From positions 1-40,242 of the forward strand of contig CAMVHR010000024.1 of the NCBI GenBank assembly GCA_947167345.1: DNA of 40,242 nt, read 5' to 3'. The position numbers were made by a program, and so were the translations under genes. Origin of the DNA: an uncultured Treponema sp. (GTDB lineage: Bacteria > Spirochaetota > Spirochaetia > Treponematales > Treponemataceae). Positions 19,625 to 34,120 of this stretch are shown piece by piece. The notes beneath the pieces were generated by a model, which was not told where the DNA came from, ran no database searches, and saw nothing but the letters and a program-made list of their open reading frames with translations. Each line of letters starts with the position of its first letter. The stretch's first letter is position 1.

Positions 19625-20980
19625 TTATTTTTCCTCTGCTGTTTCATTTGGGAATTGCTGTAAAATATGATTTTCGTCAACATCAAATCCATCTAAGGTT
19701 TTCAAGAAATATAAGTGTGATGCAGGTTCAAGAGTATTCAAGACCTCCTGTCCCGTTGTAATCCATGAAATAGACTTTCCTTTTTCATGAAGTACACTTA
19801 ATATATTACCATAAGTAGAAGTTTCGTCACACTTTGTAATAATTACAGATCTAAAATTAAACTGTTCATAGTTTCTAAGGATTTTCTCCAAATCCTTAGT
19901 CTTTGTACTTGCACTTACCGCAAGAAAAATATCTGCATGCATTTTAGGAATATCAAGCATCTTCACTAAACCTGCAATATTTTTATTATCATTAGGACTA
20001 AATCCACTTGTATCTATAAAGATAAATTTTACTTTCGGATCATTATATTGTCTGTACAAAGTCTCCAAATCATCTTTTGTTCCTGCTTTTTCTACAGACA
20101 CATCAAGAGCCTCGCCATAATGCTCGAGTTGCTCTGCAGCTGCGACACGCATATTATCAATCGTAATCATGTGCATGACAGGCTCTTGACCTTTAGGCAC
20201 ATTATTCTTTCGTGAAAGATACTTAACTTTTGAAGCCATTTTTGCAATTGTTGTAGTCTTTCCAACACCTGTTGGACCTACAATTACAATAATATGAGGA
20301 GACTTTCCTTTATATTTACCTGCAATCTTTATATTCTCGCCAATCCAGTCAACGACAGAATTCTTAACAAGCTCGAAATCATCAAGCTCTTCAATAGAAA
20401 ATTCCTTACGGAGCCTATTTTTTATTTCTTCTATGTAAAAAGGACTGAATTCATTCTGAACAAGCAGTTTTTCTAATTTTACTATGGAAGGATGCTCTTC
20501 TCTTTCAGCAGTCTTCATTGAAAGAGTATCGATCTTGCTTTTTATTTCTTCAAGCTGCTTATTAACCTGAGCATTCTTAAGCAAATCCTTTATAGCATTC
20601 TGAGCAGGGGAATCAATTTGCTGCTTCAAGATATTATTACGTGCCGTTACAAAATCTTCCCTAGAAGAAGCCGGTGCTCCAGATGTTCGGTTCATTCCAG
20701 ACAGAATTTCTCCATAATTTGACTGTACCCCAGAATAATAATCTGAAGGCTTTGAAAGAGAAACAGTATTTTTTGTAATGTACGTAGCCTCAACTACAGG
20801 TTTAGGAGAAAGAAGCCCTCCCAGTCTTGGTTGCATAACAGTTCTGTAGCCTACAATTTCATAATCAGTACTAAACTGTTTATAAAGCTGTTCCTTACAG
20901 GCTTCCAATGTAGGACCTGTAATCTTTAACTGTATAGGAGTAGATGAAACCTGCTGATTAAATGACCTGTTATTATACAT
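19625..20980 (-). CDS. flhF: Flagellar biosynthesis SRP-type GTPase FlhF
   Basis: 451 aa with the start at 20980. An earlier in-frame TTG (20992) gives four more residues, but GGAG stands 6 bases before the ATG at 20980, which I prefer. The N-terminal B region (about 1-120) contains KITGPTLEACKEQLYKQF. A helical N domain follows, then the GTPase domain with the P loop VGPTGVGKTTT, the IDTSGFSPND G3 region and ITKCDE as the G4-like motif. FlhF is the SRP-family GTPase that directs flagellar assembly to the pole, working with FlhG. Its first codons overlap the flhA end by 8 bases. Confidence 0.94.
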   Translation of the reverse strand: MYNNRSFNQQVSSTPIQLKITGPTLEACKEQLYKQFSTDYEIVGYRTVMQPRLGGLLSPKPVVEATYITKNTVSLSKPSDYYSGVQSNYGEILSGMNRTSGAPASSREDFVTARNNILKQQIDSPAQNAIKDLLKNAQVNKQLEEIKSKIDTLSMKTAEREEHPSIVKLEKLLVQNEFSPFYIEEIKNRLRKEFSIEELDDFELVKNSVVDWIGENIKIAGKYKGKSPHIIVIVGPTGVGKTTTIAKMASKVKYLSRKNNVPKGQEPVMHMITIDNMRVAAAEQLEHYGEALDVSVEKAGTKDDLETLYRQYNDPKVKFIFIDTSGFSPNDNKNIAGLVKMLDIPKMHADIFLAVSASTKTKDLEKILRNYEQFNFRSVIITKCDETSTYGNILSVLHEKGKSISWITTGQEVLNTLEPASHLYFLKTLDGFDVDENHILQQFPNETAEEK

Positions 20981-23102
20981 CAATATCTCCAATAGTTTCT
21001 ACCTTTATATCACTACCAGCTGCCATTACTTCACTTATTGAAATAACAACAAGACCAGGGATTTCTCTTTCCGTAGAAGATTTTACCAATTGACGAACTT
21101 CATCAGCACACAAAACAATCGGCAGATAGTTTCTATCTCTTACAGCCGCAATTGAAGCACTCATAACCTCAATATATTTTCTTCCATCAACAGGATCAAA
21201 ACCGACAAAAGGCTTTTGTCCAGGAATTTCACACTTATGCTCAAGGATTTTTTCTGACAAAGACTGAGACAAGCGCAAAACATGTAGAATCTTCTGATCA
21301 TCAGCATACTGAAGGCATATTTGAGCACCAAGTGCCTGACGCACTTTCTCTGTAAGAAAATAAGGATCCCGTGTAAGGGGGGCAAAATTTGCAAGAGTTT
21401 CAAGAATTGAAACCATATTTCTTATGCTAACCTGCTCTGAAAGCAGATTCTTAAGAACAGCTTCAATTTCACCATAAGTATATTTATGCTCTCCAGAAAG
21501 AACTTCATCAACAACAACAGGATTTGTCTCTTTAATCTTTGATACAATAGTACTGACTTCCTGTCGTGTAAGAATTTCCGCAGCATGTTTCTTAATGATC
21601 TCTGTTAAATGAGTAGCAATGATAGTCGGAGGATCTATTACCGCATAGCCAGCTTTTTCTGCTTCAACACGCCTATCTTCAGGAATCCATAAGGCTTCCA
21701 TGCCAAAAGCAGGATCCTGAGTACGTTCTCCCCTCAACTCCTTATCTTTTGGAACATTACCAGTATTAAGACACATATAATATCCCAACTTCAGGCGTGC
21801 GCGACCAACTTCTATACCGCGAATCTTGAACGAATATTCCTCAGAATCAATGGCCATGCTGTCTCTAATACGAATCGGAGGAACAACAAGTCCAAGATCC
21901 AATGCCTGTTCTTTTCGTATTCTTGTAACACGTTCAAGAAGCTCAGCACCTTTTTCTTTATCAACAAGAGGAACAAGAGTATAACCAAGCTCAAGGGAAA
22001 GAGGAGGAAGAGTTGCAACAGGAGACATTTCCTCACCAGAAGCGCCGGCTGTTCCAGATTTACCACCAGAAGAAGACTGAGAAACAAGCTCTTTTTCTGC
22101 TTTTTTCTGCATAAGGCTTGACTGTCGTATTCCAATATAAATAAACAGAAGTCCAACAGGAATAAGAACGACAGCAGAACCATTATGAAATGCAATTCCC
22201 ATAACGACAAGGGCAATGCCAACAATAAGATATGCTGTACCGTCTACATTGAAGTTCTTCTTCAACTGATCACCGATAACTTCTTCCGCACTACCGCCTG
22301 TAACAAGGATACCAGTTGCAAATGACAGCATAAGGGCAGGAAGCTGGGACATGAGACCATCACCAATAGTAAGCTTGACATAGCTTTCCAAGGCATCATT
22401 AAATTTCATTCCGCCCCAGACCATACCAATAATAAAGCCACCTATCAGATTCAATGCTGTTATGAATATTCCTGCCTTAACATTTCCGCTGACAAATTTT
22501 GAAGCTCCATCCATAGCAGAATAAAAGTCAACTTCCTGCCTTATTTTTTCTTTTTTAGCAGCAGCTTCCTGCTCTGTTATTGCACCAGAGTTCAACTCAT
22601 TCTGGATGTCAAACATTTTATTATTCATACTGTCCAAAGTAAAGCGAGCTGTTACTTCGGAAACACGAGTTGCACCTTTAGTGACAACAATAACCTGGAC
22701 AACAATAAGAATAATAAAAATAATAAAACCTACAAGAACATTACCGCCCGTGGCTATACTGGCAAAGGACTTCACCATTTCGCTTTGCGTATTCATAAAA
22801 ACAATAGGACTAGGAGCCCTGTTAGTAAGGATAAGCCTTGTAGAAGTAATATTTATAGCAAGACCAAATAATGTTATGAGAAGGATAAGGCGTGGAAATG
22901 AGGTAAATTCAGAAGCTCTTTTTGTATAAATAACTGTAAGAAGTACTGTCAAAGAAACAGCCATGTTCATTACCATTGCAAGGTCAACCAGACCTTTAGG
23001 AATTGGAATGAACATCATTAAAACCGTAATTACAACAGCTATTGCAATACCACTATTCTGAGAAGAAAGCATTCTGTTAAAAAGACTTTGCCTTTCTGCC
23101 AT
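20973..23102 (-). CDS. flhA: Flagellar type III export gate protein FlhA
   Basis: 709 aa, the full family length. The N-terminal half holds about eight membrane helices (about 15-330). It includes the family signature in the loop after helix 3, ASEFTSFPRLILLITLFGLA (about 63-82), and an acidic/basic stretch MDGASKFVSGNVKAGIF. The C-terminal cytosolic domain (about 370-700) binds substrate-chaperone complexes and shows LGYTLVPLVD and GRKYIEVMSAS. It is the main export gate component. GGGTGGGA precedes the ATG; this leader is exactly complementary to part of the small RNA candidate at 33791-33881. The next gene, flhF, overlaps it by 8 bases. Confidence 0.96.
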   Translation of the reverse strand: MAERQSLFNRMLSSQNSGIAIAVVITVLMMFIPIPKGLVDLAMVMNMAVSLTVLLTVIYTKRASEFTSFPRLILLITLFGLAINITSTRLILTNRAPSPIVFMNTQSEMVKSFASIATGGNVLVGFIIFIILIVVQVIVVTKGATRVSEVTARFTLDSMNNKMFDIQNELNSGAITEQEAAAKKEKIRQEVDFYSAMDGASKFVSGNVKAGIFITALNLIGGFIIGMVWGGMKFNDALESYVKLTIGDGLMSQLPALMLSFATGILVTGGSAEEVIGDQLKKNFNVDGTAYLIVGIALVVMGIAFHNGSAVVLIPVGLLFIYIGIRQSSLMQKKAEKELVSQSSSGGKSGTAGASGEEMSPVATLPPLSLELGYTLVPLVDKEKGAELLERVTRIRKEQALDLGLVVPPIRIRDSMAIDSEEYSFKIRGIEVGRARLKLGYYMCLNTGNVPKDKELRGERTQDPAFGMEALWIPEDRRVEAEKAGYAVIDPPTIIATHLTEIIKKHAAEILTRQEVSTIVSKIKETNPVVVDEVLSGEHKYTYGEIEAVLKNLLSEQVSIRNMVSILETLANFAPLTRDPYFLTEKVRQALGAQICLQYADDQKILHVLRLSQSLSEKILEHKCEIPGQKPFVGFDPVDGRKYIEVMSASIAAVRDRNYLPIVLCADEVRQLVKSSTEREIPGLVVISISEVMAAGSDIKVETIGDIDV

Positions 23103-23116
23103 TTAAATCCCACCCT

Positions 23117-32418: not shown

Positions 32419-33801
32419 ATGAAAATTCGTTCTCAACTAATGCTGCTTATAGTATTCATGGTATTCATTCCCTTTGCCTGCATGATGGTCGTTCCGGCAT
32501 ACCGCTATCTCACATCCCCACAGAGACATCTTTTAAAAGGCTACAAGGAAATTCAAGCATTGGGGAACCTTGATTTTACCGAAGAAGACTGGAGTGTCCT
32601 AAAAGATCAGATAAACAAAATACCTCCAAATGTACAGGCACTTGTCTATTATAATTCAATCGTACTTATTTCAACCATACCGGAAGCAAAAGCAGGAACA
32701 GAAATGTCACCTTATGACATTATGGAACTGATAAACAGAACCAGTTGCATGTACGATTATCAGATACAATCCCCAGAGCGCAGCAAGACAGAAAAACCAT
32801 TAACTCACTCATCACGGTATCCTCCTAAGTTTCTTGTATTGAGTCGAGTAAAAATCCAATCCTCAAAAAAACAAAATTTCGGTACATTATTTACAGTAGC
32901 ATTCACAATGCTTTTGATTTTTGAATTCATCTGCATCGCAGGTCTCATAAATCTTTCCAGAACAATTGCAACATCGATCATGCTATTGGAACAGACTTCA
33001 ATGAAAATTGCCAACGGAGAAATTTGCAAGGCAATAGATAGTCCAAACACCCGAAGCAATTCAAACGAAATAACATCCCTTATTAAGAACCTTGAAAAAA
33101 TACGCATTACCATAAAGGATGATCAGGACAGAAGAACAAAATTCCTTATGGGAGTAAGCCACGACTTAAGAACCCCTATTGCATTAATAAAAGGATACAC
33201 AGAAGCAATTACTGACGGAGTAATCAGCGACAAGGACCAAATATCAAAATCATTGTCCATAATACATTCAAAGGCTGACCAACTCGAAACAATGATCAAT
33301 GACCTCATTAATTATGTAAAGCTGAATAATACTGAATGGAAGCAAAGTCTAGAATACATATCACTGTATCCTATACTAAATGAATTTGCATCTTCTGCAA
33401 CAAATACAGCCACAATATACAAACGGAACATCACTGCTGAAATAAACGTAAGCCCTGAGTTCAAAGTATGCATGGATAAAACTCTGTTTAACAGGGCAAT
33501 GGAAAACCTGTTCAGCAATGCATTGCGATACACAAATGACAACGATTCCATCCACATTCAGGCACAAGAAGAACAGGACTGCATCAAGCTGATAATTTCA
33601 GATTCTGGAATAGGAATTGCCGAAAAAGATTTTGAAAATATATATCAAATTTTTTACCGTGGGACAAATTCCAGACGTGAAAGCGGAATGGGAATAGGGC
33701 TTTCTGTTGTAAAGACAATTATAGATGTTCACGGATGGAAAATAGACGTAAAATCAAAATTAAATGAAGGAACAGAATTTACAATAACAATTCCAAAATA
33801 A
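32419..33801 (+). CDS. Sensor histidine kinase
   Basis: 460 aa. A membrane helix (about 5-27), an extracytoplasmic sensor region of about 125 residues, and a second helix (about 155-178) are followed by a HAMP domain, a HisKA domain with the phosphorylated His248 in MGVSHDLRTPIALIKGY, and a HATPase_c domain with NLFSNALRYTN, DSGIGIAEKD and GMGIGLSVVKTI. It pairs with the response regulator just upstream. The sensor region has no recognised ligand fold. An AGGGGAA is about 12 bases before the ATG. Its stop codon lies within the U tract of the minus-strand small-RNA terminator, so the two transcripts converge and may overlap. Confidence 0.94.
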   Translation: MKIRSQLMLLIVFMVFIPFACMMVVPAYRYLTSPQRHLLKGYKEIQALGNLDFTEEDWSVLKDQINKIPPNVQALVYYNSIVLISTIPEAKAGTEMSPYDIMELINRTSCMYDYQIQSPERSKTEKPLTHSSRYPPKFLVLSRVKIQSSKKQNFGTLFTVAFTMLLIFEFICIAGLINLSRTIATSIMLLEQTSMKIANGEICKAIDSPNTRSNSNEITSLIKNLEKIRITIKDDQDRRTKFLMGVSHDLRTPIALIKGYTEAITDGVISDKDQISKSLSIIHSKADQLETMINDLINYVKLNNTEWKQSLEYISLYPILNEFASSATNTATIYKRNITAEINVSPEFKVCMDKTLFNRAMENLFSNALRYTNDNDSIHIQAQEEQDCIKLIISDSGIGIAEKDFENIYQIFYRGTNSRRESGMGIGLSVVKTIIDVHGWKIDVKSKLNEGTEFTITIPK

Positions 33802-33881
33802 AAATGCTCCGTCAGTGGGATTAGTGGGAACTGCCGGAGCATGGGTGGGACAGAGTAAAATAGTGTTAACTACCTTCTCTT
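33791..33881 (-). ncRNA. Candidate small RNA with UCCC motifs (not described to my knowledge)
   Basis: The minus strand of this gap has a full transcription unit: TTGACA, 17 bases, TATTCT, then about 90 bases ending in a strong intrinsic terminator. There is no convincing open reading frame inside. The transcript contains three CCCAC elements: GUCCCACCC before the terminator stem, and UUCCCAC and AAUCCCAC in the 13-nt terminator loop. C-rich single-stranded loops of this kind are known in small RNAs that pair with Shine-Dalgarno sequences, for example the UCCC loops of Staphylococcus RNAs. The segment UCCCACCC is an exact complement of GGGUGGGA ahead of flhA (23108-23115), and AAUCCCAC also pairs there over 8 bases. 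The role is inferred; existence of the transcript is not yet shown. Confidence 0.6.
33795..33842 (-). terminator. Intrinsic terminator of the small RNA candidate
   Basis: Minus strand: ATGCTCCG and CGGAGCAT pair perfectly, a G/A mismatch follows, then CAGT pairs with ACTG around a 13-nt loop (TCCCACTAATCCC). The stem is followed by TTTTTATTTT. On the plus strand the same hairpin is followed by GGGTGGG, so it is not a terminator for the kinase gene in that direction. Confidence 0.8.
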
Positions 33882-33902
33882 TTGTTTAGAATAACACTAT
33901 TT
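33858..33902. promoter_or_regulatory. Inverted repeat flanking the small RNA start site
   Basis: AAATAGTGTTA (33858-33868) and TAACACTATTT (33892-33902) are perfect 11-base arms separated by 23 bases. One arm overlaps the promoter spacer, the other lies about 13-23 bases after the predicted start. Only one arm would be in the RNA, so this looks like a DNA-level operator pair rather than an RNA hairpin. Confidence 0.5.
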
Positions 33903-33916
33903 ATGGTGTATGTCAA
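33888..33916 (-). promoter_or_regulatory. Promoter of the small RNA candidate
   Basis: TTGACA (33916-33911), exactly 17 bases, then TATTCT (33893-33888) on the minus strand: a consensus -35 with a -10 matching 4 of 6. Predicted start near 33881. Confidence 0.7.
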
Positions 33917-34018: not shown

Positions 34019-34043
34019 TTAGACACTTTGGAAACAAAGAGAT

Positions 34044-34116
34044 GGGCTATTAGCTCAGTAGGTAGAGCAACGCCCTTTTAAGGCGTGGGTCTCGTGTTCG
34101 AATCACGAATAGCTCA
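34044..34116 (+). tRNA. trnK: tRNA-Lys (anticodon TTT)
   Basis: A 73-base cloverleaf. The acceptor arms GGGCTAT and ATAGCTC pair with one G-U, the D arm is GCTC/GAGC, the anticodon stem ACGCC/GGCGT encloses CTTTTAA with TTT at 34077-34079, and the T arm TCGTG/CACGA encloses TTCGAAT. The discriminator base is A at 34116. The 3' CCA is not encoded, so it must be added. A single tRNA with its own promoter and terminator. Confidence 0.97.
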
Positions 34117-34120
34117 TTAT

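Follow-up and report, generated by a model that had tools for sequence, protein, structure and literature searches.

What does the minus strand encode between the histidine-kinase gene (32419-33801, plus strand) and the tRNA-Lys gene (34043-34117, plus strand) of an uncultured Treponema sp.? The interval lies in a stretch of 40,242 nucleotides (nt) (GenBank assembly GCA_947167345.1, contig CAMVHR010000024.1, positions 1 to 40,242; hereafter the window), for which a sequence-only reading had proposed an undescribed small RNA able to pair with the ribosome-binding site of flhA. Our analysis indicated that a conserved small-RNA gene almost certainly exists on this strand. Overall, we consider it likely that its product, a conserved predicted RNA of about 85 nt, is repressed by NrdR and that its UCCCAC motifs would block G-rich ribosome-binding sites. 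The features of the locus are as follows.

33911..33916, minus strand: -35 element TTGACA, read from the sequence; TTGAC is invariant in 18 of 18 aligned copies
33894..33909, minus strand: predicted NrdR box ACACCATAAATAGTGT, occupying the -35/-10 spacer; matrix score 14.7
33888..33893, minus strand: -10 element TATTCT, read from the sequence
33851..33866, minus strand: possible second, half-degenerate NrdR box ACACTATTTTACTCTG, 27 base pairs (bp) from the first box; its left half is box-like
33796..33881, minus strand: predicted transcript of about 85 nt, its start estimated about 7 nt past the -10 element; from the fold and the covariance-model match
33853..33879, minus strand: 5' stem-loop of the predicted fold
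33843..33850, minus strand: single-stranded UCCCACCC; predicted probability of CCCAC being unpaired 0.99
33804..33842, minus strand: terminator hairpin with arms 33842-33831 and 33815-33804 and loop UUCCCACUAAUCCCA at 33830-33816
33800..33804, minus strand: terminator U run of five U; it shares bases with the stop codon of the kinase gene, which converges on it (32419-33801, plus strand)

A predicted small-RNA gene with its own promoter and terminator

The promoter, TTGACA-17 bp-TATTCT, agrees with the consensus at 10 of 12 positions and has a TG ahead of the -10 element; it is the minus-strand promoter that the sequence-only reading had described, at 33916-33911 and 33893-33888. The roughly 90 bases said to lack a convincing reading frame correspond to the predicted transcript, and 33791-33882 contain no closed ATG frame of at least 10 codons. 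The strong terminator was recovered as a hairpin with a 15-base loop and five U. A terminator scan listed none at the locus because it permits only loops of 3-8. The three CCCAC motifs were also found where expected (33849-33845, 33828-33824 and 33819-33815), the first being single-stranded ahead of the terminator and the other two lying in its loop, where the final C of the last motif is paired.

The segment 33791-33882 folds at -25.4 kcal/mol, compared with -15.4 ± 3.0 for sequences shuffled by dinucleotide (z -3.3), of which 1 in 200 was equally stable. A covariance model of the element matched 33793-33883 with 74.3 bits, the window sequence being itself part of the model's training set. 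The 5' stem-loop was predicted in all 23 copies of the short form of the RNA, with a sequence that varies between clades. In the terminator stem, compared across 13 distinct sequences, one pair showed a two-sided change (U-A to C-G) in 6 of 13, one a one-sided U-A/U-G change, one was unpaired in 6 of 13 rows and seven were invariant; 301 of 500 shuffles likewise yielded one covarying pair, so that covariation lends weak support to the structure.

The element recurs at unrelated loci within the genus

A similarity search with the region found its core in other genomes. Searching 274 genomes of the family (200 in the window's genus and 74 outside it) for the 18-base core TTCCCACTAATCCCACTG with up to two mismatches returned 28 places in 27 genomes, 18 of which, all in the window's genus, carried the full promoter and terminator (14 exact, four with one mismatch). 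The remaining ten, all with two mismatches, were rejected because promoter and terminator were missing. A covariance model built from the 18 copies added five divergent ones (genomes G233, G230, G220, G243 and G200), bringing the short form to 23 genomes of the genus, all of which keep promoter, loops and terminator; together with a longer form, described below, there are 29 carriers. The sequence-only reading would have been refuted by a lack of such conservation in close relatives; it withstood this check. Model matches in G140, G226, G159, G054, G104, G216 and G187 were dropped as showing, by eye, no box or UCCCAC series. A second match in G230 was left out too, since it was the same locus on an overlapping contig end. 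Among 20 exact 18-base matches in a wider contig collection, seven came from other phyla and lacked the rest of the element.

Outside the genus, the sole match in the 74 family genomes was that in G054, which has neither box nor UCCCAC, and 291 genomes drawn from the order returned only the known copies and this same match. As far as searched, the family therefore appears to be restricted to the genus, with no convincing copy beyond it. The relatives with names comprise Treponema and metagenome bins of uncultured Spirochaetaceae, and in three of them the name includes rumen. No Rfam family matched at its gathering score and none was credible at E-values up to 1, the comparison with the Listeria RNA LhrC itself being by description only.

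The copies occupy at least six gene contexts. A kinase and a tRNA flank the element in the window and in G012; in one group an unknown protein lies upstream and a DUF4912-type gene downstream; G005 and G136 have a DUF5312-type gene downstream; G233 has nrdR and the same unknown protein upstream; and other genes are found in G118, in G220 and in G243/G200. These names come from tests of one DUF4912 and one DUF5312 gene, the remaining neighbours having been judged by eye. Since the 18-base core recurs with promoter and terminator in other species at other loci, the layout goes beyond chance. Promoter, UCCCAC motifs and intrinsic terminator move together, apart from their neighbours, and thus form an autonomous gene. 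The unknown protein (MTVTLREIRRLQ...; L167:5380-6051, L171:4819-5535) is conserved and without a Pfam match; besides standing beside nrdR in G233, it immediately precedes the small-RNA gene in many genomes.

A predicted NrdR box occupies the promoter spacer

The sequence-only reading overlooked a feature that hints at how the RNA is controlled: in all 29 promoters, a predicted NrdR box of 16 bp lies between the -35 and -10 elements. Boxes were scored with a matrix derived from 24 unique nrdD-promoter boxes, which themselves score 14.3-21.7. In 16 of the 17 carriers examined, the nrdD promoter has TTGAC, a first box in the -35/-10 spacer and a second box at 15-16 bp; in the remaining one, G118, the second box alone is convincing. 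The identity of nrdD was checked in four genomes, the proteins of G136 and G118 lying above the cut-off of the anaerobic ribonucleoside-triphosphate reductase model and the fragments from G000 and G230 matching that model best.

With this matrix the 29 promoters scored 10.6-20.6, that range being spanned by the 23 short forms, where the box always starts 7-9 bp from the -35 start, and the six long forms reaching 18.0-20.4. Shuffled spacers averaged -8.6 (standard deviation 4.9), with no more than a 0.0009 fraction attaining any observed score; for the window's 14.7, the fraction in 20,000 spacer shuffles was 0.0001. The fetched loci contained 74 distinct TTGAC-N17-TAnnnT sites, of which 36 scored above 10 and the best of the rest 1.5. 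All 36 belong either to the small-RNA family or to loci with ribonucleotide reductase genes, counting L074, whose NrdD- and NrdG-like matches lie below the models' cut-offs. A palindrome search by mismatch count did not discriminate (above its reversed control in 13 of 25 genomes, equal in 1 and below in 11, including the window's genome with 12 vs 21), and the matrix was used in its place.

Half-boxes around the first box fell at restricted distances. Downstream left half-boxes within 55 bp lay at 26-27 bp in 21 of 23 cases (21 of the 29 promoters), and all 12 upstream right half-boxes within 55 bp lay at 15-16 or 25-26 bp. Taken together, 35 half-boxes were detected in this range, 33 of them with a fitting spacing of 15-16 or 25-27 bp. 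Such half-boxes occur in 26 of 29 promoters, compared with a mean of 0.8 and a maximum of 4 promoters in 1000 rounds of shuffled flanks. NrdR from four species is reported to accept boxes separated by 14-17 and 24-27 bp (PMC12051234). This spacing is supportive of NrdR control but not proof, because the promoters share descent and, in one clade, the downstream half-box doubles as the sequence of RNA loop A.

The putative regulator is itself widespread among carriers. The window's own genome has a TIGR00244 match of 181 bits; an ATP-cone domain search in 20 carriers found a short, NrdR-size frame in 16, of which the 11 that were read look like NrdR, and a TIGR00244 search in 13 further carriers matched in 9. 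In total, nrdR was seen in 25 of the 29 carriers. A predicted box between -35 and -10 makes repression by NrdR the likely outcome, and on this sequence evidence the small-RNA promoter is very probably under NrdR control.

This arrangement resembles the known NrdR regulon, the nrd operons and Pseudomonas topA, in having (here predicted) 16-bp palindromic boxes over the promoter and, as far as the half-boxes suggest, a second site a whole number of helical turns away, as far as the accessible text of these papers describes it (PMC12051234, PMC4409342, PMC3848588). It differs in that the regulated product here would be an RNA.

Exposed UCCCAC motifs and candidate targets

The predicted folds leave several UCCC motifs exposed in loops and single strands. 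Across copies, the first terminator-loop CCCAC is unpaired with a probability of 0.83-1.00 and the single-stranded CCCAC with 0.64-1.00, G118 having ACCACTCCC at the latter place; some Treponema copies carry CCCAC in loop A too. An undescribed RNA with exposed UCCC motifs, as the sequence-only reading had it, is thus borne out as a conserved gene without an Rfam family.

The closest parallel is LhrC of Listeria monocytogenes, whose three UCCC sites (loop A, a single strand and the terminator loop) are reported as all being able to bind a single messenger RNA; UCCC loops are described there as a known seed for pairing with ribosome-binding sites (PMC4132741, partial text). The Treponema RNA shares the motifs in the single strand and terminator loop and, in some copies, CCCAC in loop A. 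Unlike LhrC, which by the same text is controlled by LisRK and has a core of CUCCC with UUUU, it carries a predicted NrdR box in its promoter and UCCCAC as its core; it also lacks an Rfam match and was found at one locus per genome, the two RNAs being compared by description only. RsaE, SprD, RNAIII and FsrA likewise direct a UCCC seed toward ribosome-binding sites, as described in the available part of that paper alone (PMC4132741). Taking these parallels with the predicted folds, the small RNA probably pairs with ribosome-binding sites via UCCCAC.

The candidate target singled out by complementarity is the following.

23108..23115, minus strand: GGGTGGGA, ribosome-binding site of flhA (20973-23102)

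As first proposed, UCCCACCC (33850-33843) is exactly complementary to GGGTGGGA (23115-23108) ahead of the flhA start at 23102, and the second pairing claimed there, by AATCCCAC, is likewise an 8-base complement. In 18 of 19 carriers, duplex energies of the single-stranded part of the RNA placed flhA at rank 1-14 of 187 leaders (rank 33 in G243); the flhA leader of the window itself was part of this background. Perfect matches of 8-10 bases occur in the window's clade (UCCCACCC in G000, AAUCCCACCC in G012, UUCCCACCC in G200); G219 and G221 reach 9 bases with a different part of the loop.

Other leaders fitted less well. Those of nrdD and nrdR, considered as autoregulatory targets, ranked 26-237 (17 carriers) and 23-253 (10 carriers) of 252; since these ranks are intermediate or low in most genomes, neither leader is favoured as a target. 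The leader of the sigma-28 gene fliA, considered as a second target, has GGGTGTGG in 5 of 9 genomes with the RNA and not in three without a detected copy (the start in G018 being doubtful), but beyond the window it shows poor complementarity to the RNA. In 11 of 11 genomes, GGGTGGG occurs more often before ATG than its reverse does (14 vs 3 in G000 and 15 vs 2 in G130, with narrow margins of 7 vs 6 in G090 and 4 vs 3 in G012), an excess that can be explained by general ribosome-binding-site use.

Two observations concern leaders as such. An unusual flhA ribosome-binding site, GGGTGGGGACT (GGGTGGGA in the window's clade), is strongly kept across the genus with or without the RNA (L276-L301), GGGTGGG being visible in 23 of 26 flhA leaders and the starts of the other three being doubtful. 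Ahead of the start of a Ser/Thr protein kinase gene (L206:1512-3014; L255), G012 and G000 have GAGGTGGGAATA, a possible pairing site.

Proposed model and its alternatives

By sequence, promoter, motifs and terminator are conserved at unrelated loci, an nrdD-like box stands in the same place in each promoter and most carriers have nrdR; from this we infer transcription, NrdR binding, production when deoxyribonucleoside triphosphates (dNTPs) are scarce, and antisense pairing. In the model that we propose, NrdR, the repressor of ribonucleotide reductase genes that senses deoxyadenosine triphosphate (dATP), would repress the small RNA at high dATP. A fall in dNTPs would lead to its synthesis, and its C-rich loops would then block ribosome-binding sites in the manner of LhrC. 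Such an RNA would carry the dNTP-pool signal to messages without an NrdR box of their own, and would be a spirochaete small RNA for which both signal and seed are predicted and a target has been proposed. Carried further, the NrdR-run RNA would shut down flagellar assembly at flhA, together with other messages, when dNTPs fall, as a post-transcriptional arm of dNTP sensing; we hold this extension to be unlikely. If true, it would offer a mechanism for the link between NrdR and motility that, in the text available, is reported without explanation in E. coli (PMC4898720). In its accessible parts, the NrdR literature describes control of protein genes, chiefly nrd operons and topA. The NrdR-bound promoters given there are those of nrd operons, nrdR, topA and ribX (PMC4898720 for ribX), these partial texts naming no small RNA, and no NrdR-controlled small RNA is described in the titles and abstract openings of the papers listed by searches of an open-access library, which covers few subscription journals.

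Several observations weigh against the proposed model. The nrdD boxes behind the matrix were chosen with a hand-made degenerate consensus, and the copies share ancestry, so that counts and shuffles overstate their independence. Most copies have one good box and a second that is a half: whole 16-mers at the second position score mostly negative or low (-13.9 in the window, where the left half alone is box-like), and G232, G005 and G136 (3 of 29) have no half-box at a fitting distance. Neither the ATP-cone nor the TIGR00244 search found nrdR in G012, G230, G111 and G174, whose drafts are 77-93% complete; the ATP-cone search matched only nrdD there. The sign of control could also differ, since a single NrdR box at Pseudomonas topA is reported, in the text seen, to activate (PMC4409342). 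As to targets, the duplex energies leave the folding of both RNAs out, and the longest perfect flhA match is just 5-7 bases in 7 of 14 carriers tested, in some outside the ribosome-binding site. GGGTGGG stands ahead of flhA in 11 of 11 genomes searched, three of them without a detected copy, and the flhA site is equally conserved in G015, G086, G087 and G090, where no copy was found; the site may therefore serve translation itself. GTGGGA[AT] shows no excess over its reverse ahead of ATG in the two genomes counted (38 vs 43 in G000, 41 vs 36 in G012). As a target, flhA is favoured by its duplex rank but weakly supported, given a site kept without the RNA and the missing enrichment; it is the likeliest single target found, yet it is rather unlikely to be a true one.

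The same lack of GTGGGA[AT] enrichment would fit an RNA that is real and NrdR-controlled but whose C-rich loops have an RNA-binding protein or a second small RNA as their partner, and an 18-base loop identical in 14 genomes exceeds the need of a short seed. However, not all copies have this loop (it reads TTTCCCACTATTTTCCACTG in G220 and G200), while UCCCAC stays, and UCCC loops are a known ribosome-binding-site seed in the available text of PMC4132741, so we find this explanation distinctly unlikely. It is very unlikely, in our judgement, that the box instead serves a different regulator whose operator is a similar 16-bp palindrome, the RNA then having nothing to do with dNTPs: the box is a prediction from sequence, its second partners are mostly half-sites and four of the 29 carriers yielded no nrdR, but the same matrix detects both it and the nrdD-promoter boxes of these genomes, at the same position with respect to -35, and the half-sites are spaced on helical phases reported for NrdR (PMC12051234, partial text).

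Two further readings can be given next to no credence. The hairpin touches the kinase stop codon and might be just the terminator or 3' end of the plus-strand kinase gene with a chance promoter opposite, but no T run follows it on the plus strand, and the relatives already contradict this: the element recurs near unrelated genes, its promoter and T run sharing one strand as they do in the window. A small peptide gene might be suspected in the window's clade, where a frame starting at an ATG of the terminator stem continues beyond the terminator into the kinase antisense; most other copies, however, have no ATG at that position, and 21 of 23 short forms contain no closed ATG frame of at least 10 codons, the sequences of the other two (G220 and G200) having ended inside the loop. 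The NrdR-repressed antisense RNA thus remains our preferred account.

The longer form and other box-bearing promoters

A -35 plus box pattern matched once in each of 33 of the 200 genus genomes, compared with 6 genomes for the reversed control. These comprised 22 short forms, six long forms and five others; the short form of G118 was missed because its gap is longer. The long form occurs in G110, G129, G146, G147, G180 and G259, that of G180 having been flagged first by the matrix scan of TTGAC-N17-TAnnnT sites.

L177, L183, L186, L187, L193 (~1500-1700) and L350, strand of the match: long-form loci carrying GGCCTATCTAACCATCAGGC

The five long forms that were folded are 137-156 nt long, and four of them have a CCCAC-bearing hairpin in place of the short-form terminator, that of G180 being without CCCAC. 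The 3' part consists of the 20-base GGCCTATCTAACCATCAGGC segment between two hairpins (one base different in G146), followed by a terminator with a C-rich loop.

The five other matches were not counted: those in G098, G197 and G234 have no such RNA downstream, and those in G014 and G165 lead to an xre-like gene. In G165 and G014 (L190:627, L194:1501) the box-bearing promoter is followed by a short inverted repeat and the xre-like gene, an operator without an assigned owner. Near-perfect NrdR boxes also occur elsewhere: G005, G136, G130 and G173 (L161, L155, L164, L087) have one in addition to the usual pair, 39-63 bp ahead of the nrdD start codon, and G015 (L073:1501-1547) has two perfect ACACTATATATAGTGT boxes, whose starts are 31 bp apart, beside a flavodoxin-looking gene whose start was judged by eye.
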